Shown piece by piece: positions 1 to 35,871 of a stretch of DNA of 64,000 nucleotides (position 1 is its first letter; the number at the start of each line of letters is the position of its first letter). The position numbers and the translations under genes were made by a program. The stretch is from IMG/VR virus record IMGVR_UViG_3300032288_004964, positions 1-64,000 of that record; one strand, written 5' to 3'. Under the pieces are notes generated by a model. It had not been told where the DNA came from. It saw only the letters and a program-made list of their open reading frames with translations, and made no database searches. Source of the stretch: a virus.

Positions 1-483
1 ACGGAACTGATGGTACAAATGGTACATCTGGTTCTGCTGGTACAAGTGGATCTTCTGGTACAAGTGGTACATCTGGTTCTTCCGGTACAAGTGGTTCTTC
101 TGGTTCTAGTGGTACAAGTGGTTCTTCTGGATCATCCGGTACAAGTGGATCTTCTGGTACATCTGGTTCCTCTGGATCATCCGGTACAAGTGGATCATCT
201 GGATCTTCTGGTACAAGTGGTTCTTCTGGTACATCTGGTTCTAGTGGCACAAGTGGTTCTTCCGGTTCTTCTGGTACATCTGGTTCTTCTGGTACAAGTG
301 GTACATCCGGTTCATCAGGTACAAGTGGCACATCTGGCTCCTCTGGTACAAGTGGTTCTTCCGGTCTTTCTGGTATAGACGGAACTGATGGTACAAATGG
401 TACATCTGGTTCTGCTGGTACAAGTGGATCTTCTGGTACAAGTGGTACATCTGGTTCTTCCGGTACAAGTGGTTCTTCTGGAA
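1..483 (+). repeat. Long-range direct repeat inside collagen-like region, offset 378 bp
   Basis: Bases 1 to about 103 recur almost unchanged at 379 to about 481, beginning at the unusual GTDGTNGTSGSAG block. The offset of 378 bp equals 126 codons or 42 Gly-X-Y triplets, so the copy keeps both frame and collagen phase. This suggests that the shaft grew by duplication of a large unit. Confidence 0.75.
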
Positions 484-773
484 CATCTGGTACATCAGGT
501 ACAAGTGGTACATCCGGTTCATCAGGCACAAGTGGTTCTTCTGGTACAAGTGGAACATCTGGAACATCTGGTTCTAGTGGTACAAGTGGATCAAGTGGTT
601 CTTCTGGTACAAGCGGTTCTTCTGGTACATCTGGATCATCCGGAACGAGTGGTTCTTCTGGTACAAGCGGTTCTTCTGGTACATCTGGTACATCTGGTAC
701 ATCTGGTACAAGTGGTTCTTCTGGTACAAGTGGAACATCTGGTACAAGTGGTTCTTCTGGTACATCTGGATAT
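3..773 (+). repeat. Collagen-like G-T-S / G-S-S triplet repeat
   Basis: About 257 codons of 9-bp-phased repeats built from ggt-aca-agt, ggt-tct-tct, gga-tca-tcc and similar codons. The repeat creates long open shadow frames on both strands (for example 10-378 + and 241-567 -). Those are frame artefacts, not genes. Confidence 0.9.
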
Positions 774-1682
774 GATGGAAATGATGGATCTAATTCTTTA
801 AGATGGTTCTTTGATATTACAGTTGGTACTTCATCGGTTACTACCTTTACAAATGGTGGTGCTACTTCATTCGCTGGTATGGCACCAGGTACAGCATTTA
901 TAATAAATGATGTAGATTCTAATAGTAATAATGTTAATAGTTGGCATACAGCGGCTTTTAATTGGGTTAGTGCTACTAACTCAATAATTCTAAAAATTAC
1001 AGAAGTTGGTAATAATAGTAACTTTGGTGTGTATAATATTGACCAGATGACTGCTGGTACAGGTGAATACTCATATATAATTAGTACTTCGGGTGTTATT
1101 GCTACAAATGGTACTTTTTCAAATACTACTCTTTATTCTATAAGTTGGGTACTTAATGGGTCTAATGGTTCAAGTGTTTCTTTAACCGGCGTTAATAACT
1201 ATACTCCTTATTATACATCATCTACTACTTTATCATCCACTAGTTCTATATGGGACGATGGTGTGAATGTTGGTATTGGTCTTGTTCCTTCAGTTGGTAG
1301 TCCTTTTAAAGTAGATGTTCTTGGTGATGTTAATGTTCAAGGAACATTCTTCGCGATATCAAAATCATTTGATATTGTTCACCCTTCTGATCCCAATAAG
1401 AGATTAACTTACGGTTCATTAGAGGGTCCAGAGTATGGTGTTTATTATAGAGGTAAATTAAATGGATATATTATAGAACTTCCTTATTATTGGATTGACT
1501 TAGTTGATAATTCTACAATTAGTGTTGAATTGACTCCTTTTGGTTCATATCAAAGATTATTTGTTCAAAAAGTAGAAGATAATAAAGTTTATGTTAATTC
1601 GGATAATGGTGGTCTTCCTGATTGTTATTATGTAGTATATGCTGAAAGAAAAGATATACCTAAAATTATAATAGAAAAGTAA
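3..1682 (+). CDS. Collagen-like fibre/adhesin protein, 5' end outside window
   Basis: The frame is open from the window edge and its first in-frame methionine is only at 879, so the true start lies upstream. The visible part is 559 residues. Residues 1-257 are almost pure Gly-X-Y triplets (G-T-S, G-S-S, with rare G-T-D, G-T-N), as in phage collagen-like fibre shafts. The C-terminal half is a non-repetitive beta-rich region; at about residues 470-484 it carries the motif SLEGPEYGVYYRG, which recurs at the ends of phage fibre and structural proteins. It is followed directly by LamG-domain genes. Inferred role: a trimeric fibre for host attachment. Its Ser/Thr density makes it a candidate acceptor for the glycosyltransferases at 16-21 kb. 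The fibre class is clear; the exact position on the virion is not. Confidence 0.85.
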   Translation, partial: GTDGTNGTSGSAGTSGSSGTSGTSGSSGTSGSSGSSGTSGSSGSSGTSGSSGTSGSSGSSGTSGSSGSSGTSGSSGTSGSSGTSGSSGSSGTSGSSGTSGTSGSSGTSGTSGSSGTSGSSGLSGIDGTDGTNGTSGSAGTSGSSGTSGTSGSSGTSGSSGTSGTSGTSGTSGSSGTSGSSGTSGTSGTSGSSGTSGSSGSSGTSGSSGTSGSSGTSGSSGTSGSSGTSGTSGTSGTSGSSGTSGTSGTSGSSGTSGYDGNDGSNSLRWFFDITVGTSSVTTFTNGGATSFAGMAPGTAFIINDVDSNSNNVNSWHTAAFNWVSATNSIILKITEVGNNSNFGVYNIDQMTAGTGEYSYIISTSGVIATNGTFSNTTLYSISWVLNGSNGSSVSLTGVNNYTPYYTSSTTLSSTSSIWDDGVNVGIGLVPSVGSPFKVDVLGDVNVQGTFFAISKSFDIVHPSDPNKRLTYGSLEGPEYGVYYRGKLNGYIIELPYYWIDLVDNSTISVELTPFGSYQRLFVQKVEDNKVYVNSDNGGLPDCYYVVYAERKDIPKIIIEK

Positions 1683-1683
1683 T

Positions 1684-3078
1684 ATGAGTACATACTATCC
1701 TTTTAAACCTATTGTTACTGATGGATTGGTCTTGTATTTAGATGCTCCTAATAAGAAGTCTTTTTCTGGATTCAATATTTGGTATGATTTAACTAATAAC
1801 TCAAATAATGCTTCTCTTTCAACTACACAGTCATCTATATCACTAGCTAATAGTATTATATTTGATGGATCTAGTGGACATGGAACTATGTCATCTTCAA
1901 CTAGTTTAGAATTGACATCCACAGGTACTATAATGGGTTGGTTAAAAATACCAAATTCTCCTAATGCTTTTGGTACTATTATAGCTAAAAGAGTTAATTC
2001 TACACCATCTGGTGTTGATTATCAATTAGATTTAGATTCATCAGGTTTTAATTTAAGAGGATCAATAAGTGATGGTGTTACTATAGATATTATAGGTGGT
2101 ACAACCACTTTAGCTACTGATACTTGGTATCACTTTACTTTTGTTTGGAATGGAACATCATTAAACTTATATCTAAATGGTGTCTCTGATGCTACTACAG
2201 TTTCACAAACAATAAATGCTCAAGTAACAAGTAATCCATTAGAAATAGGAAGAGGAAATGACACATCACCAGTTTATTTTAAAGGTAATATAGAACAGTT
2301 ATTAGTATATAATAAAGCATTATCTCAATTAGAGATAACTGAAAACTACAATATAACAGCAAGAAGATTTAGAGAAACTCTTGATGTGGTTTCACCTATT
2401 GTTCCATATGTTCCTCCTATAATAACTACTGGATTAATATTAAATTTAGATGCAGGTGATCTAAGTTCTTATCCTGGATCAGGTACTGATTGGTTTGATT
2501 TAACTGTTAATAACAATGATGTTATATTAATAAATGGTCCAACATTTAGTACTGCAAATGGTGGTAGTTTAGTATTTGATGGAGTTGGTGACTATGGTAC
2601 ATTGTCTTATAATTCTGGGTTTGATTTATCAATTACTGACTACACATTAGAAGGTTGGTTTAACTCAAATTCATTTGGGGCAGCTGCTGGTCAAATGTTG
2701 ATATCAAAAGATACAAGTGGATCTTCATTTGATTGGGGATTATATATACTAAATTCAACAACTTTGAAATTCTATAGTAATGCAACCTCAACAAATGTTA
2801 CCGCTACTGTGCCTACAATGAATACCGGACAATGGTATCATTATGTAGTAACTAGTATATCTGGAGTTATTAGAATATATTTAGATGGTGTACTATATCA
2901 AACAGGATCAATGAGTACTTCTAATAGTAGTACTACTCAAATTACTATTGGTTGCTTCTCATGGAATATTCCAGGTGGATACGTGGATGGTAAAATATCA
3001 ATATTGAGAGTTTATTCAATAGGATTAACCGGAGCTGAAGTTCTTCAAAATTATAATGCAATAAAAAATAGATATTAA
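1684..3078 (+). CDS. Virion protein with two LamG/concanavalin-like domains
   Basis: 464 residues with two tandem LamG-like (Laminin_G_3 type) modules, at about residues 8-225 and 245-460. Each starts with the pattern 'I-T-x-G-L-x-L-x-L-D-A', continues with 'W-Y/F-D-L-T', has a 'Y-L-N-G' strand and ends with 'Y-N-x-x-L-x-x-x-E-I/V-x-x-N-Y-N'. These are jelly-roll folds that in phages commonly bind surface glycans. It starts 1 bp after the stop of the collagen-like gene, and the same module recurs in the genes at 3356 and 5470, so it belongs to one adhesin operon. Carbohydrate binding is inferred from the fold; no specificity can be read. Confidence 0.82.
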   Translation: MSTYYPFKPIVTDGLVLYLDAPNKKSFSGFNIWYDLTNNSNNASLSTTQSSISLANSIIFDGSSGHGTMSSSTSLELTSTGTIMGWLKIPNSPNAFGTIIAKRVNSTPSGVDYQLDLDSSGFNLRGSISDGVTIDIIGGTTTLATDTWYHFTFVWNGTSLNLYLNGVSDATTVSQTINAQVTSNPLEIGRGNDTSPVYFKGNIEQLLVYNKALSQLEITENYNITARRFRETLDVVSPIVPYVPPIITTGLILNLDAGDLSSYPGSGTDWFDLTVNNNDVILINGPTFSTANGGSLVFDGVGDYGTLSYNSGFDLSITDYTLEGWFNSNSFGAAAGQMLISKDTSGSSFDWGLYILNSTTLKFYSNATSTNVTATVPTMNTGQWYHYVVTSISGVIRIYLDGVLYQTGSMSTSNSSTTQITIGCFSWNIPGGYVDGKISILRVYSIGLTGAEVLQNYNAIKNRY

Positions 3079-3081
3079 AAT

Positions 3082-3366
3082 ATGAATACAAACACTTATG
3101 TAATCGCAAACATATCTGAATTGAATAATGTAGATTATTCACAGGTATCACAAACATCAGCCGAGACTGTTAGAAAAAGTATAGATTTAACTAAATTTAT
3201 TCTAAAGTATGATGGTAATAAACCAGCAACAATTCAATCTTTAGATACTAATGGTAAATTGGTATCTTATAATAATAATAAATACTTTACACATCCGCAA
3301 ATTCTAGAGATTGCATCAACAGTTGAATGGGTTGGAACACAAAGTTTTTTAATGAATGGCATATAA
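3082..3366 (+). CDS. Small protein of unknown function in the fibre operon
   Basis: 94 residues, not recognised. No signal peptide or membrane segment. The central part contains 'FILKYDGNKPATIQSL', and the C-terminus overlaps the next gene by 11 bp, which suggests translational coupling. It sits between two LamG-domain genes on the same strand with no gap, so it is probably a virion or assembly component of the same adhesin set. Start at 3082, 3 bp after the preceding stop. Confidence 0.65.
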   Translation: MNTNTYVIANISELNNVDYSQVSQTSAETVRKSIDLTKFILKYDGNKPATIQSLDTNGKLVSYNNNKYFTHPQILEIASTVEWVGTQSFLMNGI

Positions 3367-5470
3367 TACTTTTTCACCTATAATAACTAATGGTTTAGTT
3401 TTCTGCTTAGATGCTGCTAACAATAAGTCCTATCCCGGTATAGGACTAAACTGGTATGATCTAAAAACAGTAACTCCAGCACTTTTAACCAATGGCGCTT
3501 ATTATGCTCCTTGGAATGATGGATCAATTAGTTTTGATGGGTTGAGTGATTATGTTAGTACTGATTTTATACCAACAATAGGAGTCGGTGATATTACTTA
3601 TGACGTTTGGTTTAAAACTGATACCGCTCAAACAGGCGGTATTATAGGAGTTAGAGACACTTCAGCTATTCAATGTGTTCTTGTTATGAGTGATAGTACT
3701 GGATCTTCAATAGGTGGTAACCTTTTATTATATTCATACGATGGGTCGGTTATTAATTCTACTTATACTACTAAAACATGGAATGATGGAATTTGGCACA
3801 ATGTAGTTATAGTACACAGCAGTACTAATCAAGATATATATGTTGATGGTATCCTTGAATCTAGTAATTCTTCCTCATCTCAGAATCTAAATATAACTTC
3901 CAAGTTACTTATAGGGTGTAATCCAAATGGTAATGTTCCTTTAAGTGGATGGAATTTTTATGGTAGTATATCAAATGCTAGAGTTTATGATAGAGCTCTT
4001 TCCTCTGATGAGATTTCTTATAACTATGATGCTATTAAATTTAGATATCTTAATAATAATACTTTTCCTAGTATAACAACAAGCGATTTGATATTAAACT
4101 TAGATGCTGGTGACTTAACATCTTATTCTGGATCAGGTCCAACTTGGTATGATTTAACTGCAAACTCATATGATGGTACTTTAACAAATGGTGCTTCCTT
4201 TAGCTCTATTGGTGCTGATAATATGGGATTTGATGGTACTAATGATTTTGTGGAGTTAGGTGATGTTTTAGATATGGGAACATATAGTTATACTATTAAC
4301 ACTTGGGTAAAAATATCAGCAACTAGTAGTGACCAAAAGTTTTTTAGTAAATCATTATCAGGTACTCAAAATTATAGATACGCTGTTGGTTTTCTAGCAT
4401 CTGCTCAGAAATTATGGGCTTTTATGCAAGGTAATGGTGGTCTTGATATAAAACCATATGGATCAACTACAATACTACCTTATCAGTGGTTTATGGCTAC
4501 TTATGTTTATGATAGAGGTTCTAATATAAAAATATATTATAATGGTGTTTTAGAAACACTAACTACTAGTTCTACAATATCATCTTGGAATGGATTAGAT
4601 TTTCAATCTAACAACCCGGCTAGAGTTGGTGCTTATACAGCAGCTGACAATACTAGTCCCATTGAAACAACTAATGGTAAAATAGCAATTTCTCAAATTT
4701 ATAGAAGAGCATTACCAGCATCTGAAATATTATATAATTATAATATAACTAAATGGAGATTTCTAAATGATAACCTACCTCCGGTTGTTCCAATTGTAAC
4801 TGACCAAATAGTTTTAAATTTAAATGCTAGTGATCCTGTTTCTTATCCTGGTACTGGAACTACTTGGTTTGACTTAACATTAAACACAAATGATGGAACA
4901 TTAACAAATGGTGTTGCTTATAACCCAGTTGATGGTGGTGTTATGATTTTTGATGGTGTTAATGACTATGTAGATTTCTCAACTACTAACCTATCAGGTA
5001 CTGGTGATATTACAATAGATACATTCCTTAAGTTAGATGGTGCTCAAACGGTCTATGCTAACATATTTGATTATAGCCATGCTGGTCCTCCAGGATTAGG
5101 TGGTTTTGTTATTCAACAAAATGCAGATGCTGGTGTTGGTAGTACTAATTTTTACTTTGCTTGGTGGACCGGATCGACATTTGACTTTTGTTTTTTTCAA
5201 GTTCCTTTAACCAACACTTACTTTCATTTGGTTATTACTAAAAGTGGCGGAAGTGTTGTGGTTTATATAAATAGTGTATCATCATTTACTGGATCAGGAT
5301 CATCTTATTTAGATGGAACTGGTAGAGTTATGGCGATTGGTGCTAATAAAGGAGGATATGGTAGATACATAAAAGGAACTATAGGTGAGTTTAGAATATA
5401 CAGTAAAGCATTAACAGCTGCTGAAGTTCTACAGAACTACAATGCTCAAAAAAGTAGATATGGTTTATAA
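3356..5470 (+). CDS. Virion protein with three LamG/concanavalin-like domains
   Basis: 704 residues made of three LamG-like jelly-roll modules (about 5-225, 235-465 and 480-700). Each opens with an 'I-x-T-x-x-L/I-V/I-L-N/C-L-x-A' strand and 'Y-P-G-x-G-x-x-W-Y/F-D-L', and each ends in a 'YNA/YNI-xKxR(Y/F)' tail. The start lies inside the preceding gene (11-bp overlap). The stop overlaps the next start as TAATG, so the two are probably translated together. Expected role: cell-surface glycan recognition on a fibre or baseplate. The modules resemble those of the neighbouring genes closely enough to suggest internal duplication. Confidence 0.82.
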   Translation: MAYNTFSPIITNGLVFCLDAANNKSYPGIGLNWYDLKTVTPALLTNGAYYAPWNDGSISFDGLSDYVSTDFIPTIGVGDITYDVWFKTDTAQTGGIIGVRDTSAIQCVLVMSDSTGSSIGGNLLLYSYDGSVINSTYTTKTWNDGIWHNVVIVHSSTNQDIYVDGILESSNSSSSQNLNITSKLLIGCNPNGNVPLSGWNFYGSISNARVYDRALSSDEISYNYDAIKFRYLNNNTFPSITTSDLILNLDAGDLTSYSGSGPTWYDLTANSYDGTLTNGASFSSIGADNMGFDGTNDFVELGDVLDMGTYSYTINTWVKISATSSDQKFFSKSLSGTQNYRYAVGFLASAQKLWAFMQGNGGLDIKPYGSTTILPYQWFMATYVYDRGSNIKIYYNGVLETLTTSSTISSWNGLDFQSNNPARVGAYTAADNTSPIETTNGKIAISQIYRRALPASEILYNYNITKWRFLNDNLPPVVPIVTDQIVLNLNASDPVSYPGTGTTWFDLTLNTNDGTLTNGVAYNPVDGGVMIFDGVNDYVDFSTTNLSGTGDITIDTFLKLDGAQTVYANIFDYSHAGPPGLGGFVIQQNADAGVGSTNFYFAWWTGSTFDFCFFQVPLTNTYFHLVITKSGGSVVVYINSVSSFTGSGSSYLDGTGRVMAIGANKGGYGRYIKGTIGEFRIYSKALTAAEVLQNYNAQKSRYGL

Positions 5471-6168
5471 TGTCAGTAGGTAGTTTAGATATAATAACAG
5501 ATGGATTGGTATTTTATGTGGATATTATTAATGACAAATCATATCCTGGTTCTGGTACAAATTGGTATGATCTTACTTCTAATGGTAATAATGGATCATT
5601 TAGTGGAAGCCCAACGGTCAATCAAAGATTTATTGGTTTCGATGGTGTTGTTGATTACATCAACTTTGGTTCTATTGGTCAATTACAGTTTTCAAATAGC
5701 GATGATTACTCAATATCAACTTGGTTTAGATGGACTACAAACTTAAATACTATACAGACCGTATTTAGCTATGCTCTATCAGGTGGTGCTGGTTATTATA
5801 TTGTTTTGAATTATCCCTCAAGTGATGTAGTACTCTCTGATTACTATGATGGTTCTAATTATCGTGGATTGAATACTAACTCACCAATTCCTAAAAATGA
5901 GTGGTGTAATATAGTAGTGACATCTGATACATCAAATTCATCAGCTGGTATGAACATTTATCTAAATGGTGAAATTATGAGTTGTACATCAAGAGGTTTT
6001 GGACCACCTAATTCTATAAACTATAGTGGTTTGGATGTAAATATTGCCACCAGAATGAATTCTGATTGGTTTGAGGGTGATATCTCTTCTATTATGGTTT
6101 ATAATAGAGCTCTGACACCTCAAGAAATACTACACAATTACAACAAATTAAAATGGAGGTTTTTATAA
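5470..6168 (+). CDS. Single LamG/concanavalin-like domain virion protein
   Basis: 232 residues forming one LamG-like module with the same opening ('IITDGLVFYVDI', 'SYPGSGTNWYDLTSNGN') and ending ('VYNRALTPQEILHNYNKLKWRF') as the modules of the two preceding LamG proteins. It begins in a 1-bp TAATG overlap with the 704-residue gene. It is probably the last member of the LamG set, since a spaced promoter-like motif follows before the next gene. Function in glycan binding is inferred from fold and context. Confidence 0.8.
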   Translation: MSVGSLDIITDGLVFYVDIINDKSYPGSGTNWYDLTSNGNNGSFSGSPTVNQRFIGFDGVVDYINFGSIGQLQFSNSDDYSISTWFRWTTNLNTIQTVFSYALSGGAGYYIVLNYPSSDVVLSDYYDGSNYRGLNTNSPIPKNEWCNIVVTSDTSNSSAGMNIYLNGEIMSCTSRGFGPPNSINYSGLDVNIATRMNSDWFEGDISSIMVYNRALTPQEILHNYNKLKWRFL

Positions 6169-6169
6169 A

Positions 6170-6180
6170 ATAATATATAG
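6170..6180 (+). promoter_or_regulatory. Candidate late promoter (ATAATATATAG)
   Basis: AT-box of the recurrent TTAATATATAC type, 3 bp before the ATG at 6184. Such a short distance would give a nearly leaderless transcript, so it may instead be an initiation-region signature. Confidence 0.35.
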
Positions 6181-6183
6181 ATT

Positions 6184-9100
6184 ATGGCATCACAAAGAGA
6201 TATAAGAATAACCCCTAAGTTAGGATCTACAGCATCAAATGATTACCCAAATATTGATTTTGGTGGATTAAGTGCATCAACTATTAAATTAAAAGTTGAT
6301 GATGATGGTACAGTTGTTTATACTGGTACTTACGGTGTTCTTTTCAATGTAACTGATGAGAAGTTTGGACTTTTACATTCGGTTAATGATGTGTCAGGTT
6401 TACCTATTTTACAAGTTTATTCTTGGGATTATGTTCAGTTAGGAAAATGGGATAAATATGCCCTATCTGTTGCTACTGATAAAGTAGGTATTGGTTTAAC
6501 TGCTCCAAGTAATAAACTTCATATTTATTCAACACAATCTGATGCTTTCAGACTACAAGATGGTAGTGAAGGTTCTGGTTATGTTTTAGTTTCTGATGCT
6601 AATGGTGTTGGTAGTTGGTCTGCTAGTGCTGGTGGTGGTGGATCTGCTGTTATTTTATTGGGAGCTGGTGCTGGATCAAGTGTTAGATGTGGTTTAGGTA
6701 ATAATGCTTCTGGTGTTTGTTCAACTATAAGTGGTGGTTATAAAAACACAGTATCTAATGCACATTCAACTATAGGTGGTGGTAGTAATAATACTATATC
6801 CGGTAAATATGCTAATTGTTCAACTATAAGTGGTGGTTATCAAAATACAATCTCCGGTTATGGTTATTTTTCATTTGTTGGTGGTGGTGGTTGTAATTCA
6901 ATCTCTGGTAATAATTCATGTTACTCAACTATAAGTGGTGGTTATCAAAATACAGTCTCCGGATTTAAATCATACTACTCAACTATAAGTGGTGGTGTTC
7001 AAAATACAATATCTAGTTATTATTCCTCTTGTTTTTCATCTATAGGTGGTGGTAAATCAAACACAATTTCCGGATATTATTCATATCAATCAACAATCAG
7101 TGGTGGTTATTCTAATACAATCTCTGGTTATAGTTCATATTTATCGACTATAAGTGGTGGTTATGCTAATACAATCTCTGGTACAAATTCATACTCATCA
7201 ACAATCAGTGGTGGATGTCAAAATACAATCTCAGGATTTAACTCATATGAATCAACCATAGGTGGTGGTAGAAATAATACAATCTCAGGTCATTACTCAT
7301 TCGCATCAACAATCAGTGGTGGTGTGTTAAATAATGTAGTTGGGTATCAATCTTATGCAAACACTATATCTGGTGGTGTTCAAAATACAACATCTGGTGA
7401 TTACTCTACAATAGGTGGGGGTCGTTGTAATACAATATCAGGATCATATTCAACAAATTCAACAATAAGTGGTGGTTATCAAAATACATCTTCCGATAAA
7501 TATACTACTATTGGTGGTGGTTGTTTTAATGTGTCATCTGGTAGTGCTTCTACTATAGGCGGTGGTCTTAATAATACAGCATCTGGTTACTGCTCTACTA
7601 TATCCGGAGGTTCATTAAACTGCGCTTCTAATCAACTAGCTACTGTTGGTGGTGGTACTCTTAATAGCGCGAGTGGTATTAACTCTACTGTTGCTGGTGG
7701 TTGTTATAATACATCTACTAATACATTTGCTACAGTTGGTGGGGGTGTATTAAATCAATCTGATGGCGAATCTTCAACAATCAGTGGTGGGTATTCTAAC
7801 TTTATAGAAACTAGATCATATCAATCAACAATTAGTGGTGGTGGTTCAAACTCAATTGACAATTCATGTCAATCAAATATAGGTGGTGGTTATCAAAATA
7901 CAATCTCCGCTACTAATTCATATCAATCAAATATAGGTGGTGGTTATCAAAATATAGTATCTGGTGATAATTCATATTTATCAACCATAAGTGGTGGATA
8001 TCAAAACAAAATTTCTGGTATTCAATCATTCAAGTCAACAATAGGTGGTGGTGGTTCAAACTCAATTTCCGGTGCCATTTCAGAAGTATCAACTATTGGT
8101 GGTGGTTATTGTAATACAATCTCTGGTTTTTACTCATGTTTTTCAACTGTTGGTGGTGGTAAATTGAATACAATCTCTGGTTATTCTTCATATGCTTCTA
8201 CTATAGCTGGTGGTGGTGGTAAATTTGGAAATACAATCTCTGGGTTACATTCACAGAAGTCATCCATAGGTGGTGGTGATGCTAATTTAATATCTGGTGA
8301 TAATTCATATTTATCAACTATAAGTGGAGGATATTTTAATACAATCTCAGGTCAAAGTTCATATATGTCTAGTATTGGTGGTGGTAGAGATAATACAATC
8401 TCCGGTTATAATTCGTATTGTTCAACTATAGGCGGTGGTAATGTTAATACAATCTCTGGTACAAATTCGCAATTATCAACCATATCTGGTGGTCAATCTA
8501 ATGCAATCTCAGGATTTAATTCATATAGGTCAACTATAAGTGGTGGTTATCAAAATACAATCTCCGGTTACTATTCATATATATCAACTATAAGTGGTGG
8601 TAGACAAAATACAATCTCTGGTAATAATTCATATCAATCAACTATAAGTGGTGGTTATGCTAATACAATATCTGGTACAAATTCGCAATTATCAACTATA
8701 AGCGGCGGTTATTGTAATACAATCTCCGGTTATAATTCAGATAAATCAACTATAAGTGGTGGCCTTTTAAACACAATTTCTGGTTATCGATCATGTCAAT
8801 CAGCTATAGGTGGTGGTAATGCTAATACAATATCTGGTCAATGTTCGGTAGCATCAACTATTGGTGGTGGTAATGCTAATACAATCTCTGGTTATAATTC
8901 AGATAAATCAACTATAAGTGGTGGTGAAACTAACTACATATCTGGTACAAATTCATATAAATCAACAATTAGTGGTGGGTATCAAAATACAATATCCGGT
9001 CAAAATTCACAAATATCAACTATTAGTGGAGGATATGGCAATTTAGTCTCTGGGTTCAATTCATATTCATCAACTATAAGTGGTGGTAGACAAAATACAA

Positions 9101-10938: not shown

Positions 10939-10946
10939 GATGAAAA

Positions 10947-10957
10947 TTAATATATAT
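10947..10957 (+). promoter_or_regulatory. Candidate late promoter (TTAATATATAT)
   Basis: Recurrent AT-box, 35 bp upstream of the ATG at 10992 in the 53-bp gap after the giant repeat gene. Confidence 0.5.
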
Positions 10958-10991
10958 ATAGAATTATAGATAAAAATTAAAAAGAACGTGA

Positions 10992-13900: not shown

Positions 13901-14909
13901 AGATGATGATCATCCACAATATCTTTTAGCAGATGGTACAAGGTCTATGACTAATAATTTAGTAATGGGTTCTAATTCTATAACTGGAGTTCTTCAAGTA
14001 AATGGAGTAACTATTGAATCACATGCTTCAAGACATTTACCAAATGGTTCAGATCCTTTAACTACTGGTGTCCCATACTCAATAGGTACAGTTAGTTCTG
14101 AAGGTATATTAAATGCGTTTGCTAGACAAGATCATATTCATGCTCATGATGACCAACCGGGTGGTTCACTACATTCCGTTGCTACTACTGACTCAAATGG
14201 ATTTATGTCATCTACTGATAAGACAACTTTTGATGCAATTCCAACAACTTATGTAAATAAATCCGGTGATACGATGACTGGTGGGCTAACTATGTCTGGT
14301 GGTTTAGTAATGAACTCATATTCTATATTTAGTGTATTAAAAGTAAATGGAGTTGTTGTTGAATCACATGCTTCAAGACATCTACCTGGTGGTCTGGATG
14401 CCTTAACTACTGGCACTCCATCATCAATAGGTACTGCTAGTTCTGAAGGTTCGGTAAATGCCTTTGCTAGACAGGACCATATTCATGCTCATGATAATCA
14501 ACCAGGTGGTTCACTACATTCCGTTGCTACCACTGACTTAAATGGGTTTATGTCATCTACTGATAAGACAACTTTCGATGCAATTCCAACAACTTATGTA
14601 AAGATTAGTGATGGTTTTTATAGCATAGTTAGTGTAACTACAACTACATATAATGCTGCTCAAACAACTGGTAATCCAGTTTTATTAGTTAATACAGTAA
14701 CTGCCGGTGGTAGTGTTACTATTAATCTACCAACTGCTGTAAGTAACAAGGCTATTTTTACTATTAAAAAAATAGATTCTGGCGCGTCTAGTGTAGTTAT
14801 TGATGGAAATTCAACACAAACAATTGATGGATCATTGACGGCTACAATTACTGTTCCATATACCTCAATAACTTTAGTTTCTGATAATTCTAATTGGTAT
14901 ATAATATAA
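10992..14909 (+). CDS. Beta-helix tail fibre/tailspike-like protein
   Basis: 1305 residues. Two pectin-lyase-like right-handed beta-helix regions are visible. Each starts with the pattern 'A-x-D-G-x-D-F/A-K-K-G-G-D-F-S/T-S-V-x-x-A-I/V' and continues with 'Y-x-V/I-x-V-x-x-G-x-Y/F-Y-E' and 'V-x-L/I-V-G' (about residues 72-330 and 372-620). A middle beta region (to about 950) is followed by two near-identical modules with HASRHLP-G and 'FARQDHIHAHD', then a C-terminal cap with 'GGSVTINLPTA'. These are typical tail-fibre elements. No catalytic residues for polysaccharide cleavage could be assigned. It stands alone behind its own promoter-like box. Structural or receptor-binding role is well supported; enzymatic activity is open. 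Confidence 0.8.
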   Translation: MAYIINNSDGFRFNSGTGPGIIYLGGVTISSSNDAIAISKLDLGTENNPFILSASGSSIYVNNSVFSSFDSKTILVASDGADFTSVKTAIESITDATASNVYTVRVRSGIYYEQPFTIPSYVALVGESSISTIIQATFSDQTLVTLSDQSGIFDVQIQGCTDTGAAAVVYSSATTPQTNAIAYVENVRFGQNYTHAKVIGTGSNGNCIMQCSNIKYGGYSFTLGFHATNAGTGIGRMQLRNVTSTNGGITTTTGLVFAKADASGCGFIVNGCLLTKSAGAAAGTGFQVENGGFLRLTGVNFQRWATAIYAPNDSGSPSIDAIALNFENNTIDIQIDNTKATGKIQGADSYTKTIISATSSLYVVNKDPKRIQVAKKGGDFSSVASAVNSLSNTSESNRYVIEVGPGVFYEGLIDLSTKPYVSIVGSNIQTTQIVASYSNHNLIKMGLANEVSFLSLNDVGSGYAAIIADDSGDFSQVHKLSFYNCDIGIKVLSASQDTLFYGEYVDFNGSYSRAVVLDSQSSGYRAFANIENFYCFPSATGSRAVEVLNPLAEVNIAAASIQGAGNDIGIYGENGAILNVTSMDILAYETGLYIENAGTFSSFDFNAVTIDDTTTVPINVQHPYTKGLFQGSLNDHTTIVNNSESVYWQFLDRLDGEINITRKGSVTFVDGTTTDFTALLFESAPMGILSGGEISISSGLTVSISSGYGYLENTTGDVYQRIDWSTSLYQLPDNSSSYIYINENSNIVDNTSLPSITNNIVLGRVVTLNGGILFIENTRVDSKHSSNKLNLFNRRAFGSIYESGSIVTEGSFSQTLNVTSGSYWFGNANFAPTGGSGITFSQFYRDGSGGWIISSTTGVTGRYDDGSGSLVAMTTGYYTKHTLYVVGEGFDEKYLLVVGQSEYANLVDAEASALSTPPSYIDGAVVSIAAIYMQQGGTGILQIEDIKPVLGFKSSGVNASSDHGNLLGLADDDHPQYLLADGTRSMTNNLVMGSNSITGVLQVNGVTIESHASRHLPNGSDPLTTGVPYSIGTVSSEGILNAFARQDHIHAHDDQPGGSLHSVATTDSNGFMSSTDKTTFDAIPTTYVNKSGDTMTGGLTMSGGLVMNSYSIFSVLKVNGVVVESHASRHLPGGLDALTTGTPSSIGTASSEGSVNAFARQDHIHAHDNQPGGSLHSVATTDLNGFMSSTDKTTFDAIPTTYVKISDGFYSIVSVTTTTYNAAQTTGNPVLLVNTVTAGGSVTINLPTAVSNKAIFTIKKIDSGASSVVIDGNSTQTIDGSLTATITVPYTSITLVSDNSNWYII
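14016..14600 (+). repeat. Duplicated HASRHLP fibre module, offset 345 bp
   Basis: The segment starting at 14016 (gaatcacatgcttcaagaca) recurs at 14361, and similarity runs through 'DHIHAHD', 'GGSLHSVATTD' and 'FMSSTDKTTFDAIPTTYV'. The offset is 345 bp or 115 codons, an in-frame tandem module duplication. Confidence 0.85.
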
Positions 14910-14927
14910 AAATAAAATAAATAGAAT

Positions 14928-15383: not shown

Positions 15384-15386
15384 TAT

Positions 15387-16094
15387 ATGGCACTAGCATT
15401 TACACAATTGGCAGTTGGATTAGCATCCACAACTAACGGAACAGGAGCATATACAGCAACTGCCGGAACGCCGGTCGCTGGTGATTTACTTATATGTTTT
15501 GTGTTATGTAGTGGTAATTCAACGGTCGGTACTTTAACTGGTGGTGGTTGGACATGGACAAGATTGACTACATTTACAAAAACTGGTGGTGCTGATATTG
15601 CATCTATATGGTATGCTTATGCAAGTTCTAATACCTCTACCGCTCCATCATATACTCCTTCTTCTGCAGCAAGTGGTTGTTTAATTCATTGTGTTAGAAT
15701 AACAGGTGGTGAAGGAAAACTTCAACCTTATATAAGACAATTTGCTACTAATAGTGGAACTGGTGCTAATCCTACAGTTGTTTTCTCAACAGCTCCTTTA
15801 ACTGGTAATGGTATATTAGCGTGGGCTTCAAATGCTACTAATAGTACTACTCAATGGACAGCACCGACTGGATTGACTGAGATAGCTGAATTGGCATTTA
15901 ATAATCCAGCTAACTCATTAGAGATAGCAAGAGCTATATCTGGTGTTACAGCGACTACATTAACTTGGACTAATGCTCAGGTTACTGCATGGGTTACATA
16001 TGCTATTGAGCTTTATAATGCAGGAACTGGACCAACTAGTACTACTGATATAAATAGTGGTGATGGTTTCTTTGGATTGGTAAATACAATATAA
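15387..16094 (+). CDS. Virion-associated beta-sandwich protein
   Basis: 235 residues with phage-structural features: 'TPVAGDLLICFVL', 'GGGWTWTRLTTF', 'IWYAYASSNTSTAPSYTPSS' and 'ITGG', a pattern shared by many phage and prophage proteins of unknown atomic role. Low charge and rich in Thr, Ser and Gly, with no signal peptide. The start at 15387 lies inside a TATAATATATGG box. It precedes a small ORF and the carbohydrate-enzyme genes, and is probably the last large structural gene of the fibre operon. Confidence 0.7.
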   Translation: MALAFTQLAVGLASTTNGTGAYTATAGTPVAGDLLICFVLCSGNSTVGTLTGGGWTWTRLTTFTKTGGADIASIWYAYASSNTSTAPSYTPSSAASGCLIHCVRITGGEGKLQPYIRQFATNSGTGANPTVVFSTAPLTGNGILAWASNATNSTTQWTAPTGLTEIAELAFNNPANSLEIARAISGVTATTLTWTNAQVTAWVTYAIELYNAGTGPTSTTDINSGDGFFGLVNTI

Positions 16095-16109
16095 AAAAAT
16101 TATATAAAA

Positions 16110-16310
16110 ATGAAGACAAGAGTAATAGAACTGGTAGAAAAACAAACCGTTGATGGAAATATTAATCTAATTGCAGAGTGTAATGATTATGAAAATGGTG
16201 AAAGAACTCAACAACTTTCTAGATCGCCATTTACATTTACATCTACAATGACTGACGACGAGATTAAGTTATCTATTCAATCTAATCAATATTCAATTTA
16301 TTTTAGTTAA
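16110..16310 (+). CDS. Small protein of unknown function
   Basis: 66 residues, not recognised. It is charged and Thr/Ser rich ('SPFTFTSTMTDDEIKLSI'), with no membrane segment. It is co-directional with the fibre genes, 15 bp after the previous stop, and ends 29 bp before the GT9-like gene. It could be a fibre-assembly helper, but nothing in the sequence proves this. Confidence 0.55.
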   Translation: MKTRVIELVEKQTVDGNINLIAECNDYENGERTQQLSRSPFTFTSTMTDDEIKLSIQSNQYSIYFS

Positions 16311-16339
16311 ACTTTTATTATATCATAGATATAATATAC

Positions 16340-17224
16340 ATGGATAAATTTGCAATATTTCATCTCGAGGGTGGGTTAGGAAAACATGTTGCTGCTACCG
16401 CAGTTGCTGAATGTATAAAGAATAATTACCCAGATAGAAAACTTTTAGTTGTTTGTGCTTATCCAGAAGTTTTTTTAAATCTAAAGTTTATTGATAGAGT
16501 ATATAAAATAGGAATGACTCCTTATTTTTATAATGATTATATTGATGGTAAAGATTCATTGATATTTAAACACGAACCTTACTTTACAACAGAACACATA
16601 CATAAAACACTACCTTTAATAGAAAATTGGTGTAAACTTTATAATCTTAATTATAGTGGTGAAATGCCTTCTTTAGTTTTTAATGCAAAGCAAAAACAAT
16701 TAGGTATTAATAGATGGAAAAGAGATAGACCAATAATGGTTATTCAAACTAATGGTGGTCCACTAACAAATCAGCCTTATATTAACTCTTGGACAAGAGA
16801 TATTCCAATTTACTTATCTGAGATAATAGTAAATCACTATAGAAATGATTATCATATTATTCAGATTTGTAGAGCAGGATCTGTAGCTATGCAAGGAGTT
16901 GAAGTTGTGTCAGATAGTATGTCTAATATGGAGTTATTTTCTCTATTATTAGTTTCTCAAAAAAGAATTTTAATAGATTCTTGCTTACAACATGCTGCTA
17001 CTGCTCTTGGATTATCTTCGGTTGTTCTTTGGGTTGGTACCTCCCCTAAAGTTTTTGGATATAATCTTCATAGAAATATTGTAGCTAATCTTCCAAATGA
17101 TATTGTGAAATTACCAGATAGTTATCTATTTGATTATAGTTTTGAAGGTATTTTACATGAATATCCTTCATTAGAATCAGAAGTTTTTGATCCTAATGTA
17201 GTGATACAACAAATTAATTTATAA
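16340..17224 (+). CDS. GT9-like (heptosyltransferase-superfamily) glycosyltransferase
   Basis: 294 residues with a GT-B outline. The N-terminal 'FHLEGGLGKHVAATAVAECI' glycine-rich loop is followed by 'RKLLVVCAYPEVFLN'. The C-terminal half has 'RILIDSCLQHAATALGLSSVVLWVGTSPKVFGY', the usual donor-binding region of GT9 enzymes (LPS heptosyltransferases and relatives). GT9 enzymes transfer activated sugars, often heptose, to glycolipid or protein acceptors in the cytoplasm. It precedes the sulfotransferase by 3 bp and faces the heptosyltransferase operon on the other strand. It probably builds or extends a glycan on phage fibres or on the host surface. The fold call is good; donor and acceptor are unknown. 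Confidence 0.75.
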   Translation: MDKFAIFHLEGGLGKHVAATAVAECIKNNYPDRKLLVVCAYPEVFLNLKFIDRVYKIGMTPYFYNDYIDGKDSLIFKHEPYFTTEHIHKTLPLIENWCKLYNLNYSGEMPSLVFNAKQKQLGINRWKRDRPIMVIQTNGGPLTNQPYINSWTRDIPIYLSEIIVNHYRNDYHIIQICRAGSVAMQGVEVVSDSMSNMELFSLLLVSQKRILIDSCLQHAATALGLSSVVLWVGTSPKVFGYNLHRNIVANLPNDIVKLPDSYLFDYSFEGILHEYPSLESEVFDPNVVIQQINL

Positions 17225-17227
17225 TAT

Positions 17228-18046
17228 ATGCCAAAGAAAATATTCTTTCAAAGTTCCTTGCCTAGATCAGGATCAACTCTTTTACAAAATATAATGGGTC
17301 AAAATCCAGATTTTTATGTAACACCAACTAGTGGTGTATTAGAACTTGTTTATGCTGCTAGAAATAATTACACAAATTCACCTGAGTTCAAAGCACAAGA
17401 TTCAGAACTTATGAAAAATGGTTTTGTTAATTTTTGTAATTCGGGTATTAACGGATTCTTTAATGCTATAACTGATAAACCTTATGTTATTGATAAAAGT
17501 AGAGGATGGGGAGTTCATTATCAATTTTTAAATTCATTTTATCCAGATCCAAAGATTATTTGTATGGTTAGAGATTTAAGAGGTATTTTTGCTTCAATGG
17601 AAAAAAACTTTAGAAAGAATCAGCATCTTGATTCTGGTATTGTTAATCATGCTCAAATGACAGGAACAACAACAGAAAAAAGAATTGATATTTGGGTAGC
17701 AGGTCAACCGGTTGGTATTTCTATAGAAAGATTATATCAAGTTTTTAGAGAAGGTATAAATCAAAAAATGTTGTTTATTAGATTTGAAGATTTAACATCA
17801 AATCCACAGAAGGAAATAGAAAGAATTTATGAATATTTAGAGGTTAATCCATTCAAACATGACTTCAATAATGTTCAACAAATAACAGTAGAAGATGACT
17901 CAGTTTATGGTATTTATGGAGACCATAGTATAAAAAGTAAAATAGAACCTCTTAAAAATGATTATAAAGAAATTTTAGGACAAGGAGCTTGTGATTGGAT
18001 TAAAAATAATTACAAATGGTTCTATGATGAATTTAAATATTATTAA
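17228..18046 (+). CDS. PAPS-dependent sulfotransferase
   Basis: 272 residues. The 5'-phosphosulfate loop PRSGSTLL is at residues 12-19 and the 3'-phosphate-binding motif 'CMVRDLRGIFASM' at about 112-124 (R115, S123 region), as in the sulfotransferase family (Sulfotransfer_1/3 type). Such enzymes move sulfate from PAPS to a hydroxyl or amino group of a sugar, lipid or tyrosine. It follows the GT9-like gene by 3 bp and ends at a strong bidirectional terminator, so the two probably form one unit. Context suggests sulfation of the sugar built by the adjacent glycosyltransferases. The acceptor cannot be read from sequence. Confidence 0.85.
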   Translation: MPKKIFFQSSLPRSGSTLLQNIMGQNPDFYVTPTSGVLELVYAARNNYTNSPEFKAQDSELMKNGFVNFCNSGINGFFNAITDKPYVIDKSRGWGVHYQFLNSFYPDPKIICMVRDLRGIFASMEKNFRKNQHLDSGIVNHAQMTGTTTEKRIDIWVAGQPVGISIERLYQVFREGINQKMLFIRFEDLTSNPQKEIERIYEYLEVNPFKHDFNNVQQITVEDDSVYGIYGDHSIKSKIEPLKNDYKEILGQGACDWIKNNYKWFYDEFKYY

Positions 18047-18050
18047 TAAA

Positions 18051-18072
18051 AAACCCACTCTAAAGTGGGTTT
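18051..18072. terminator. Bidirectional hairpin terminator
   Basis: AAACCCACT / AGTGGGTTT stem (9 bp) with a 4-base loop and T runs on both sides, between the convergent sulfotransferase and heptosyltransferase genes. The heptosyltransferase stop codon is inside the loop. Confidence 0.9.
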
Positions 18073-19217
18073 TTTTCTATTATATCTTTAATTTTTTCTA
18101 TTACCATTTCACCAGTTATTGACTTACTACATTCAAATTGTTTATCAGCTCCTTTATTAACAGGACACCAATTCCAATCACCAGCATCTAATCTATAATC
18201 ATTAAAACATCCAGTGCATTTGCCTTTAGGTGTTTCTATTCTAATTGTATTTTTAATTGTTTCTGTATATGTGTAACTAAATCCAGATATAATACAAGTT
18301 GTTGTTCCGGTTGCCCAACTTAACCAACTCAATCCAGATCCTATTCCAATAAATAATTTACTTTTCTGAAGAACCTTTATTACTTCTTCTATACTTCCAT
18401 TAGGGTGTTTCTCGATTCCTTCTGGATGTTCATTACCCATATATCCATCTTCCTCTCTCGAAATTAAAATAACTCTCCATCCTTTAGATTTTAGGTAATC
18501 AACCACTTCTTGCCAACCTTTTTCATTATTCCAATATTTTGACTGAGCCGTTCCATGAATAGCAATGCTTACTATATTTTCTTTTTGTATAGAACTATTC
18601 ATTGTTATTTTTGGTCTTATTTCCTTATGATCTAGTCCTAATATATCACTAGCTGTTTGTTGAAGTGGTCTTAATCTGAAGTTATTAGGATTATTGTTGA
18701 AATTAAAATCACCATCTTCATAATACCATCCAATATTATATTGAGCTGTTATATTATTTGCTGGAAGACCTCTTGGTATGAACTCTATTTCTGGATATTC
18801 ATTTTGGAATAAATTATTCCAAAATGTAGAACAGATAACATGACAATTATGTTTTTTTCTAAATTCATCTACATAAGGAATCCAAGCTAAATTATCACCT
18901 AAAGAAGATGAATCAAAGCATATAAAAACTCTTTTACCTTTTAAATCTAAATCTATATTATAGACTTCCTCTCCTTTGTTTTTATTTATAGATATTGACC
19001 AATCAATAAAATAAGACTTACTGGCTTTTATCCAGTGGTTCTCTGTGATTTTACCCATGTGATGTAATCTTCCTGTCTTTTTATCCTTAAATGAGACTTC
19101 AAATTCATCACCTGGTGAGTTTAATATTTCTACAAAAGGTCCTCTTATGTAGTTAACATTTATTATAGGATCTTTTTTTCTTATTATATTTGTATTTCTT
19201 ACTAAATTATTATACAT
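18060..19217 (-). CDS. Autotransporter-type O-heptosyltransferase (TibC/Aah-like)
   Basis: 385 residues. The N-terminal beta region (1-100, 'YFIDWSISI', 'VYNIDLDLKGKRV') leads into a GT-B domain with 'FDSSSLGDNLAWIPYVDEF' and 'NCHVICSTFWNNLF'. The C-terminus has four cysteines (C334, C337, C351, C363) in a CxxC-x13-C-x11-C arrangement around 'DWNWCP'. This layout is that of the bacterial autotransporter heptosyltransferase family (TibC, Aah), in which four Cys hold an iron and the enzyme glycosylates serines on 19-residue beta-solenoid repeats of adhesins. Here it is the last gene of a three-gene minus-strand operon, near phage fibres with Ser/Thr-rich 18-residue repeats. Inference: it glycosylates those fibres. 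Family call strong, substrate unproven. Confidence 0.85.
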   Translation of the reverse strand: MYNNLVRNTNIIRKKDPIINVNYIRGPFVEILNSPGDEFEVSFKDKKTGRLHHMGKITENHWIKASKSYFIDWSISINKNKGEEVYNIDLDLKGKRVFICFDSSSLGDNLAWIPYVDEFRKKHNCHVICSTFWNNLFQNEYPEIEFIPRGLPANNITAQYNIGWYYEDGDFNFNNNPNNFRLRPLQQTASDILGLDHKEIRPKITMNSSIQKENIVSIAIHGTAQSKYWNNEKGWQEVVDYLKSKGWRVILISREEDGYMGNEHPEGIEKHPNGSIEEVIKVLQKSKLFIGIGSGLSWLSWATGTTTCIISGFSYTYTETIKNTIRIETPKGKCTGCFNDYRLDAGDWNWCPVNKGADKQFECSKSITGEMVIEKIKDIIEKNPL

Positions 19218-19218
19218 A

Positions 19219-20853
19219 TTATTCTTTTGATTTTGAAAATTGAAGAAGACCTTCTTGATTAACTTTATTATCCTGTTTTAGAGATTCAAATGATATTTTA
19301 TAAATATTTAAATTTTTAGAATCTAAATGTTTTTTTAATTTATCTTCCAAAGTATTATAAGGTTCTAATGTATAATAATCCTCTCTACTTTCGAAATGAT
19401 TAAAAAATGATAAAGAATGTTCTATTTTTGATGATAAGAACCCAGAACAGTAACCATCATATTCATTTTTTTCATATTTATAAATAATAATATCAAAATT
19501 ATCTAAAAGCCTAGAATTATCATTAAGTACTTTATTAGATATTTGATAATCATAATTTATTATATGCACTTTTTTATATCCAAGTCTTTCTATAAAATTC
19601 AATCCATCTTTTATTAAAGAATAAGCAGCATATCCGTGTTCAAATTCAAATGGAGTTGTTGTTTTATTTCCATTGATATCTATGCGCCAATAATTATAAT
19701 TTACATTATATTTTTTAAATTCCTCTTTATATAATAAGGGATTATTTTTATTATAAATATAATAATCACATAATAATTGATTTTCCTCACTTACCGGATA
19801 GTTTGTCGATAAGACAACTGGTAGACTAATAGAACTTAAGCATTCGTTTAGTAGATTTTTTCTATAATTTGTATTAGCATGCGCGACAACTAAACAAATT
19901 GAATCACTTTCAGATTTTATTTCAAAGTGTTCTAATATCAAATTTTTATTAACCAAAACATTATCTGTTATATATTTAGCTTCTTTATATTTAGGGTAAG
20001 TTTCTAAGTCTTTAATAAAAATTGGAAGACTATAACTAAGGGCCTCTTTTATAGAGATTGGATTAAGTTCCCATAGTGATGGAAAATAAAATAAGTCACT
20101 AGCCATATAAAATTTATCAACATCATTTCTCTCACCATGTATTATACAGTTTTCTGGTAAATTAACCATTAAAGGTTCCCAATAATCTTTGAAATTAATA
20201 GCTTGATTTCCTACAAAATGAAATTTAATTTTTTCATTTGAACAAAGTCTCGCCAATTCTATTATATGTTTTTGATTTTTACCAGGTGTGAATAAGCCGA
20301 CATTTAAAATATGTTTATATTCTTTATCAAATCCTAATTCCTCTTTAGCCTTATCCTTATCATAATCAATTTTTATAATAGGATATTCCCATATATCACA
20401 AGGAATACTTCCTTGAAATACTTTATCAAATACGCCTTTACTCCATTCTGAGACTAAAATAAATTTATCAGCAGTATATTTAATATTTTCTGGTTTAGTA
20501 TTAGATGAATGTGTTGTTGCTAAAATATAATAATTTCTACTCTCATCATATACCTCTTTTAAGATAGCATCATCTACAAAAGTATCTGGTATTTCCTCAA
20601 AGTGTATTATATCAGGATTTATATTTTTAATAATTTCCAACAGATATTTTTTATCATCTGATAATCCAAAAAATTTATTACCTAATAGATTTTTAATTTG
20701 ATTTCTTTGAACCACATAAGCATCTCCGTAGTAGGTATATTCAACACAATAAATATCAAAATCATTTATAAATGATTTAATCTTTTCTAATAAGTATTGT
20801 GGTTGACCACCGGTTGATAAGTGTGGTGTTATGAATAACAGTTTTCTTTTCAT
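19219..20853 (-). CDS. GT4-family glycosyltransferase with extra C-terminal domain
   Basis: 544 residues. Residues 1-310 are a GT4-type GT-B fold: N-terminal 'LLFITPHLSTGGQPQYLLEKI', 'INPDIIHFEEIP', 'HILNVGLFTPGKNQKHIIELA', and the donor-site region 'LFYFPSLWELNPISIKEALSYSLPIF' with the usual E-x7-E spacing. Residues about 315-544 are a second domain ('ICLVVAHANTNYRKNLLNECLSSI', 'EFEHGYAAYSLIKDGLNFI', 'VHIINYDYQ') that looks like a small GT-A-type or glycosyltransferase-associated region; I cannot name it. The start overlaps the methyltransferase stop by 4 bp and the stop is 1 bp before the heptosyltransferase start, so the three are one operon. Probably makes or elongates the transferred glycan. 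Confidence 0.75.
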   Translation of the reverse strand: MKRKLLFITPHLSTGGQPQYLLEKIKSFINDFDIYCVEYTYYGDAYVVQRNQIKNLLGNKFFGLSDDKKYLLEIIKNINPDIIHFEEIPDTFVDDAILKEVYDESRNYYILATTHSSNTKPENIKYTADKFILVSEWSKGVFDKVFQGSIPCDIWEYPIIKIDYDKDKAKEELGFDKEYKHILNVGLFTPGKNQKHIIELARLCSNEKIKFHFVGNQAINFKDYWEPLMVNLPENCIIHGERNDVDKFYMASDLFYFPSLWELNPISIKEALSYSLPIFIKDLETYPKYKEAKYITDNVLVNKNLILEHFEIKSESDSICLVVAHANTNYRKNLLNECLSSISLPVVLSTNYPVSEENQLLCDYYIYNKNNPLLYKEEFKKYNVNYNYWRIDINGNKTTTPFEFEHGYAAYSLIKDGLNFIERLGYKKVHIINYDYQISNKVLNDNSRLLDNFDIIIYKYEKNEYDGYCSGFLSSKIEHSLSFFNHFESREDYYTLEPYNTLEDKLKKHLDSKNLNIYKISFESLKQDNKVNQEGLLQFSKSKE

Positions 20854-21518
20854 TTTTTATAAAATGGTTTTTCTACCCAGTTGGGTAAATCTAAATTTGA
20901 TATTATATTCAAATCCTGTTCTTTATTTTTATCAAATTTATCATAATCAAAATATGGATTATTAAATTGACAAATTGATTGTTTGCCTCTTCTAATAACA
21001 CCACATCCCCAATCTTTATTAACTACACAAATGTCTAAGTCATATCTTGTGCATCTCATCTTATATATGGCTTTCCAAACAGTTCCATTCCAAGCATCTC
21101 CAGCAGTTGTACTGTGATCATTGTAATAAGCCCTGGCATGATGTTCGGTAGGTGGATTACAATCATGTAAAACTATACTACCATTTTCTGAAAGATGATT
21201 TAGTGCATTATTTATATCTCTTTCTACTTGATCAGAAACATGTAGACCATCTATGAATATTATATCCCATTTGTAATCAAATGGTTTATCCAATAAACCA
21301 TTATCTATCATTGAGAAGAAGCTATCCGATGTGTATTTATATTTGGCTTGATTATTATCTGTTTCTAATCCAGGATCTACAGAATCTTTTGATTCACATT
21401 TAATATGGTTAAAACAATGAGATGGTTCTCTAAGACCTATTTCTAGATATTTTTTATAATTAAACTTTTCTGATAAAAAGTTAATGATATCAATTCTACT
21501 TTCAATTTGTTTTTCCAT
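20850..21518 (-). CDS. Class I SAM-dependent methyltransferase
   Basis: 222 residues with a Rossmann methyltransferase outline (Methyltransf_24-like): 'KKYLEIGLREPSHCFNHI' as motif I, 'KDSVDPG' as motif II, 'WDIIFIDGLHVSDQVERDINNAL' as motif IV, and 'GSIVLHDCNPPTEHH' as motif V. This type often methylates sugars or glycan intermediates and is common in glycan clusters. It is the first gene of the minus-strand operon with the GT4 protein and the heptosyltransferase. Inferred role: O-methylation of the sugar donor or finished glycan. Substrate not readable. Confidence 0.75.
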   Translation of the reverse strand: MEKQIESRIDIINFLSEKFNYKKYLEIGLREPSHCFNHIKCESKDSVDPGLETDNNQAKYKYTSDSFFSMIDNGLLDKPFDYKWDIIFIDGLHVSDQVERDINNALNHLSENGSIVLHDCNPPTEHHARAYYNDHSTTAGDAWNGTVWKAIYKMRCTRYDLDICVVNKDWGCGVIRRGKQSICQFNNPYFDYDKFDKNKEQDLNIISNLDLPNWVEKPFYKK

Positions 21519-32664: not shown

Positions 32665-32710
32665 ATTATTTTATTATTTTTTTTTATGATCTATATATTC
32701 TCCTGTTAAA

Positions 32711-32729: not shown

Positions 32730-32743
32730 GGATTTTTTATAGA

Positions 32744-35870: not shown

Positions 35871-35871
35871 A

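Follow-up and report, generated by a model that had tools for sequence, protein, structure and literature searches.

Why would a large phage carry, close to its own fibre genes, an enzyme of a family so far known only from the glycosylation of bacterial (autotransporter) adhesins? The question is raised by the first 64 kb (the window, 64,000 nucleotides) of the 385,333-base virus record IMGVR_UViG_3300032288_004964, which by its gene content belongs to a contractile-tailed jumbo phage (myovirus), because the window holds a major head protein, a protease, a portal, a terminase and a tail sheath (Table 1). An earlier interpretation made from the letters alone (the sequence-only reading) had proposed that the phage modifies its own fibres with a glycan, and every open reading frame that it named was recovered in place. 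We estimate at about two chances in three that the phage module O-glycosylates the phage's own structural proteins, with the Gly-(Ser/Thr)-(Ser/Thr) triplets of collagen-like fibres as the acceptor.

The product of gene 18060-19217 is a member of the TibC/Aah O-heptosyltransferase family. It scores 277.4 bits (E 1.6e-82) against TIGR04414 (hepto_Aah_TibC), for which the curated cut-off is 200, and matches the PDB TibC sequence 4rb4 with an E of 1e-56. Its AlphaFold (AF2) model (mean predicted local distance difference test, pLDDT, 93.4; predicted template modelling score, pTM, 0.90) consists of an N-terminal beta-barrel and a GT-B core. The top Foldseek match of this model is TibC 4RAP (E 4.5e-37, template modelling (TM) score 0.84-0.86); TibC chains fill the first 21 places among the PDB fold matches (TM 0.80-0.86), and WaaC, the lipopolysaccharide (LPS) heptosyltransferase, comes next in the ranking (TM 0.41-0.46). 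TibC moves heptose from ADP-heptose onto protein serine, and its iron finger contacts the protein acceptor (PMC4358343, from which the residue numbering is taken). Residues C334, C337, C351 and C363 of the phage enzyme align with TibC C339, C342, C358 and C370 in the spacing CxxC-x13-C-x11-C, and the four cysteines are invariant across all 82 viral members aligned; a four-cysteine iron finger appears to be in place, with iron binding predicted. The catalytic D110, to which D108 of the phage enzyme corresponds, and the donor-site T226, K230 and W305 are kept as well, in 81-82 of the 82 viral members. Profile search and predicted structure thus bear out the TibC-type identity that the sequence-only reading had claimed, cysteine set included, and the enzyme would be expected to transfer heptose.

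Comparison across the family points to the acceptor. Maximum likelihood splits the family with 100/100 support, TibC and the typical bacterial members falling on one side and all phage members, together with some bacterial ones, on the other. In the phage-side bacterial loci the enzyme adjoins a small signal-peptide protein or lipoprotein with runs of GTS/GSS triplets (for example in Methylobacter luteus, at 152 bases, Methylobacter sp. BlB1, Methylomicrobium and several Gammaproteobacteria), and the triplets are the sole feature shared by these otherwise differing neighbours. A triplet neighbour is present in 12 of 16 phage-side loci versus 0 of 60 classical bacterial loci (Fisher p 6e-11; the loci are not independent), counting only loci without the look of a phage contig. 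Because the pattern had first been noticed in a few loci before this count was made, the split was retested on new loci, taken from one bacterial order in which 16 of 301 genomes contain a family member: among the previously unseen loci, triplets adjoin 4 of 5 phage-type and 0 of 6 classical enzymes (p 0.015). The classical neighbours provide a positive control, TIGR04415 strand-loop-strand (SLS) repeats being present in 6 of 6 tested (one just below cut-off). On balance we favour a separate TibC branch with a new acceptor class, Gly-(Ser/Thr)-(Ser/Thr) collagen-like repeats, common to large phages and Gammaproteobacteria, notably methanotrophs; the phages would modify their fibres, some bringing their own heptose-activating enzymes, and the bacteria would modify secreted proteins and lipoproteins.

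The pairing is also found among viruses. Scanning IMG/VR gave at least 261 viral contigs with TibC-type relatives; the loci kept, with the window and below 90% identity, make up 45 non-redundant loci, 32 of which have a terminase large subunit, portal or sheath gene inside the fetched flanks. In the window, the collagen-like fibre (3-1682) reaches 130.5 bits against Pfam Collagen (PF01391; cut-off 27.2), and its G-T-S/G-S-S composition is as first described, with 44 GTS and 33 GSS among 93 triplets. The triplets form an unbroken run of 88, with 92% Ser/Thr at the X and Y positions, and of the 262 residues of the triplet stretch 161 are Ser/Thr and none is Pro; because proline is absent, the stability of the bare chain as a triple helix is uncertain. 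A second fibre gene, at 246959-251848 of the record (minus strand, locus L165), joins GTS triplets to some 41 copies of the 18-residue repeat found in 6184-10938. Collagen-like proteins, mostly Ser/Thr-rich, lie within the flanks in 12 of the 45 phage loci, and they also neighbour the enzyme in three phage-like contigs of bacterial bins (L085, L095, L096) and in the isolate Microcystis phage Mel-JY01 (PP395634.1, L169), whose TibC-type gene adjoins a 1016-aa GTS collagen-like frame at 2-3052. The Mel-JY01 deposit calls genes 1-651 and 739-2298 on the strand opposite to this forward frame, and enters 4747-8430, a fusion of a glycosyltransferase with a TibC-type domain, as 'methyltransferase FkbM'.

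A DNA pattern for (G-[ST]-[ST])4, searched for across whole viral records, occurs in 11 of the 13 TibC-bearing ones that reach 60 kb (its reversed form in 0) and in 0 of 20 large proline/glutamine (PQ)-collagen records, unmatched for host range and habitat (p 4e-7). TibC was present in 9 of 120 loci picked by the Ser/Thr triplet pattern versus 0 of 120 picked by PQ-collagen. Mucin-like Ser/Thr/Pro stretches, tried as a general acceptor, were dropped, as they occur in only 5 of the 45 loci and one of these is merely proline-rich. The acceptor might be another virion protein (giant fibre, LamG protein, sheath or capsid), the triplets co-occurring as a common feature of large aquatic phages. The relatedness of the loci leaves room for this, as does a giant structural protein of about 2300-2500 aa, encoded immediately upstream of the module in 16 loci; such an acceptor would not account for the bacterial chromosomes, in which the enzyme is again paired with proteins that have nothing but the triplets in common, or for the empty PQ-collagen control, and we regard it as unlikely. 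One giant tail-fibre-like protein encoded upstream of the module (L041:3-7016) has a gp53-like domain at its C-terminus and matches an intein splicing domain below threshold (E 2e-7).

Attention had originally been drawn to about 66 Ser/Thr-bearing 18-residue repeats in 6184-10938, by analogy with the 19-residue TibA/AIDA-I repeats. The repeats are there: a strict pattern finds 64 repeat starts, 45 of them spaced exactly 18, Ser/Thr are conserved at fixed repeat positions, and AF2 confidently predicts a beta-solenoid with one coil per 18 residues (pLDDT 95.2). As the main acceptor, this solenoid would also find some comfort in the second repeat fibre, which matches TIGR04415 at 17.7 bits. That match is the best in the record, where none exceeds the cut-off of 30, and the 39 other TibC viral records have no match at all; the solenoid model has no PDB match at E<=1e-3 in Foldseek, TibA being unlisted, a homologue of the repeat protein occurs in 1 of the 44 other loci (L016), and bacterial clade members adjoin triplet proteins instead. 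We judge the solenoid about as improbable a main acceptor as the other virion proteins. The best reading of these sequence comparisons is that the triplet fibre would be the primary acceptor, with the 18-residue repeats as possible secondary ones; O-glycosylation of the phage's own fibres accordingly stands as the most likely role, and what changes from the sequence-only reading is the favoured acceptor.

The neighbouring genes suggest that the glycan is elaborated. A homologue of the glycosyltransferase family 4 (GT4) gene lies near TibC in 41 of the 44 other loci, and its product, presumed to be the next-sugar transferase, is indeed a fusion of Glycos_transf_1 with a further C-terminal domain. 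The methyltransferase, presumably acting on a sugar oxygen, is fused to GT4 in some other TibC phages and encoded by a separate, adjacent gene on the same strand in the window; among the 44 other loci its sequence has a BLAST match in L016 only. Sulfotransferase homologues occur in 2 of these 44 (L016 and L034). Methylation and sulfation of the glycan might follow from these assignments, each of which agrees with what had been proposed at first sight. The 'GT9-like' label given to 16340-17224 fared less well: the open reading frame exists, with homologues in L016, L009, L017 and L034, and the label is the weakest item, with no match in Pfam or NCBIfam and an hhalign probability of 52%, which makes it a weak candidate for a second heptosyltransferase.

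Surface-polysaccharide loci, too, often contain genes for GT4 enzymes, methyltransferases and sulfotransferases, and for similar gene clusters of pelagimyophages, with glycosyltransferases and rfaE, the published proposal is a remodelling of the host surface (LPS or O-antigen) that would block superinfection (PMC7029224). Such a role is less likely still for the present module, as TibC is a protein O-glycosyltransferase whose acceptor-contacting iron finger every aligned viral member retains, the triplet association reaches into bacterial chromosomes, and the genes sit among head and tail genes. Viruses are also documented to encode glycosyltransferases acting on DNA (Pyle 2024, as cited in PMC12619734). 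That the enzymes glycosylate the phage DNA (hypermodified bases) is very improbable here: the TibC-type and GT4 genes have no match to a DNA glycosyltransferase family in Pfam, NCBIfam or PHROGs, and the bacterial relatives adjoin secreted proteins.

Glycosylation of triplet proteins by a heptosyltransferase requires a donor. RfaE I (a kinase) and RfaE II (an adenylyltransferase) represent the two HldE activities of heptose activation. In 18 of the 45 loci the gene after TibC has RfaE domain II as its best NCBIfam family (103 bits in one example), and in 16 of the 45 a PfkB kinase has RfaE domain I (109 bits in one example), with scores under the equivalog cut-offs; to judge by these matches, the HldE2-like genes beside TibC apparently supply the heptose donor. 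Because GmhA was not found in the 39 TibC-bearing relatives, heptose 7-phosphate would come from the host. Kinase and nucleotidyltransferase genes also characterize the viral NDP-heptose enzymes (Tang et al., as covered in the review PMC11573728), whose viral role is called unsolved there; in our loci they stand directly after TibC, and unlike the promiscuous enzymes of that class the phage nucleotidyltransferases lack the STTR5 promiscuity motif GRSTT, 16 of 18 having xFSTT.

Several observations weigh against the glycosylation of triplet fibres with heptose as proposed here. First, RfaE domain I/II and GmhA matches are absent from the window's own 385-kb record, so the donor of this phage would be host-derived. 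Second, TibC activity depends on R286, a residue in contact with the adenine of ADP-heptose (PMC4358343). At this position the phage enzyme has Val and 81 of the 82 viral members have V/T/A, while 69 of 80 bacterial loci encode Arg; because Arg286 is lost in nearly all phage members, the donor may differ from ADP-heptose. Third, the thumb region is shorter and has no hairpin strands in the model, and the FV at the tip of TibC is replaced by YM; in TibC, dodecamer assembly is driven by a thumb that forms a beta-hairpin and has two hydrophobic residues at its tip (PMC4358343). Fourth, two large TibC-bearing records lack the triplet pattern, most giant-fibre phages have no triplet fibre within 10 kb (it is about 45 kb off where measured, in L018 and L042), and the clade includes members without a triplet neighbour: L086 (which has an irregular SSSGSSG variant), L093, L097, L118 and L436 (at a contig end). 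Finally, the p-values overstate independence because the loci are related by descent. As to Arg286 itself, its loss is common to the phages and a methanotroph-centred bacterial subset, the phage-like contigs L095/L096 and the gammaproteobacteria L098-L102/L104 keeping Arg, a distribution that may reflect a switch of nucleotide donor within one subclade. The loss was considered as a sign of the new acceptor and rejected, as L098-L102 and L104 keep Arg yet adjoin triplet proteins.

If the triplet fibres are indeed the acceptors, the TibC-type enzyme would act during infection and before assembly, probably in the cytoplasm of the infected cell, moving heptose, or some similar nucleotide-activated sugar, onto Ser/Thr of the triplets in both fibres (3-1682 and 246959-251848). 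The GT4 neighbour would probably then extend the glycan by another sugar; its tailoring may fall to the methyltransferase and, in this lineage, to the sulfotransferase. Because the triplet stretch is without proline, the glycan may help to stabilise the fibre, and it may also change the fibre surface.

Table 1. Features of the window, with strand and supporting evidence
Feature	Coordinates	Strand	Evidence and remarks
Gly-Thr-Ser/Gly-Ser-Ser collagen-like fibre	3-1682	+	Pfam Collagen, PHROG tail-fibre matches; 5' end cut by record start
LamG/ConA-lectin-like fibre-region genes	1684-3078, 3356-5470, 5470-6168	+	Laminin_G_3 180 bits for 3356-5470
Repeat fibre, possible secondary acceptor	6184-10938	+	About 64-66 copies of I-[SG]-G-G-x-x-N-T-I-S-G-x-x-S-x-x-S-T
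Large fibre-region protein, weakly parallel-beta-helix-like	10992-14909	+	Pectinesterase 25.6 bits, slightly under cut-off
Possible GT-B-like transferase ('GT9-like')	16340-17224	+ (as fibre genes)	hhalign to TibC profile
Sulfotransferase	17228-18046	+ (as fibre genes)	Sulfotransfer_3 74 bits
Stem-loop and T tract, candidate terminator	18048-18075		Consensus match only; separates two convergent gene sets
TibC/Aah-family protein O-glycosyltransferase, phage-type clade, 385 aa	18060-19217	-	Profile, PDB, fold
GT4 glycosyltransferase with C-terminal domain without family match	19219-20853	-	Glycos_transf_1 60 bits
Methyltransferase	20850-21518	-	Methyltransf_24 35.7 bits; cut-off 26.3
Major head protein	30982-32664	-	PHROGs
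Protease, head region	32744-34882	-	PHROGs
Portal	35912-37615	-	PHROGs; head gene set spans 30982-37615
Terminase large subunit	49159-51300	-	PHROGs
Tail sheath	57727-61671	+	PHROG 324 bits

The window terminase shares 79% identity with its counterparts in two phage records of 634-642 kb, in neither of which the scan gave a TibC match. The tail sheath is very long (1314 aa), its PHROG matches spanning the C-terminal half only, and the two outer LamG-type genes group with 3356-5470 by BLAST. Similar short N-terminal peptides (e.g. MKYLKxxNEEL) begin the products of 21585-22331, 23913-24206, 24912-25550 and 28654-29103 in the window and recur at 377014-382977 of the record; they recall T4 capsid-targeting sequences, and their bearers are possibly packaged proteins. 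From sequence motifs, 26274-27218 has the look of a DNA adenine methylase and 27226-27741 that of a NADAR/YbiA-type protein. At 366069-366692 of the record (L166), the N-terminus resembles, by eye only, the glycerol-3-phosphate acyltransferase PlsY, which would be unusual for a phage.

Glycosylated collagen-like proteins are known from quite different settings. Mimivirus is a eukaryotic virus in which hydroxylysine is glycosylated by a different enzyme family; BclA is a spore-surface protein with GPT-type triplets and a rhamnose/anthrose glycan made by enzymes unrelated to the TibC type. The likeness to mimivirus is that of a virus glycosylating its own collagen-like protein (Luther 2011, as cited in PMC8968730), and BclA, from the exosporium of Bacillus anthracis/cereus, shares with the present case a glycosylated prokaryotic collagen-like protein and an O-methylated sugar in the glycan (PMC8968730, PMC6222408); its glycosylation is believed to strengthen a hydration network (PMC8968730). 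Mycobacteriophage virions likewise bear glycans on structural proteins (Freeman et al. 2023, as cited in PMC12619734); the parts modified there are the C-termini of capsid and tail tube subunits, and the citing passage mentions no TibC-type enzyme or collagen-like acceptor. With the bacterial autotransporter heptosyltransferases (BAHT) TibC and Aah (PMC4358343) the phage enzyme has in common the family score, the fold (TM 0.85), the catalytic Asp, the Thr/Lys/Trp, the four cysteines and the N-terminal beta-barrel; it differs in its phage-dominated clade, the lost Arg286, the shorter thumb, the Gly-Ser/Thr triplet partners and phage records without an SLS-repeat target over cut-off. A literature search covering few subscription journals found no report joining a heptosyltransferase, a collagen-like protein and glycosylation. 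What is new is apparently a distinct clade of a known family with a new acceptor class in phages, virion glycosylation as such having been reported already.

If this is true, a protein-glycosylation family of well-understood structure, so far tied to autotransporter adhesins, would gain phage fibres and a new repeat class as targets, and would offer a prokaryotic counterpart of collagen glycosylation. It would also give viral heptose-biosynthesis genes a role, explaining the presence of heptose-activating genes in some phages, and would caution that fibre-adjacent phage glycosyltransferases need not target host LPS or DNA. The proposal is directly testable in Mel-JY01, a sequenced phage whose host is named, and in a named bacterial strain, Methylobacter luteus IMV-B-3098. 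Glycosylated fibres could bear on host recognition, on virion stability and on the immune recognition of phages.

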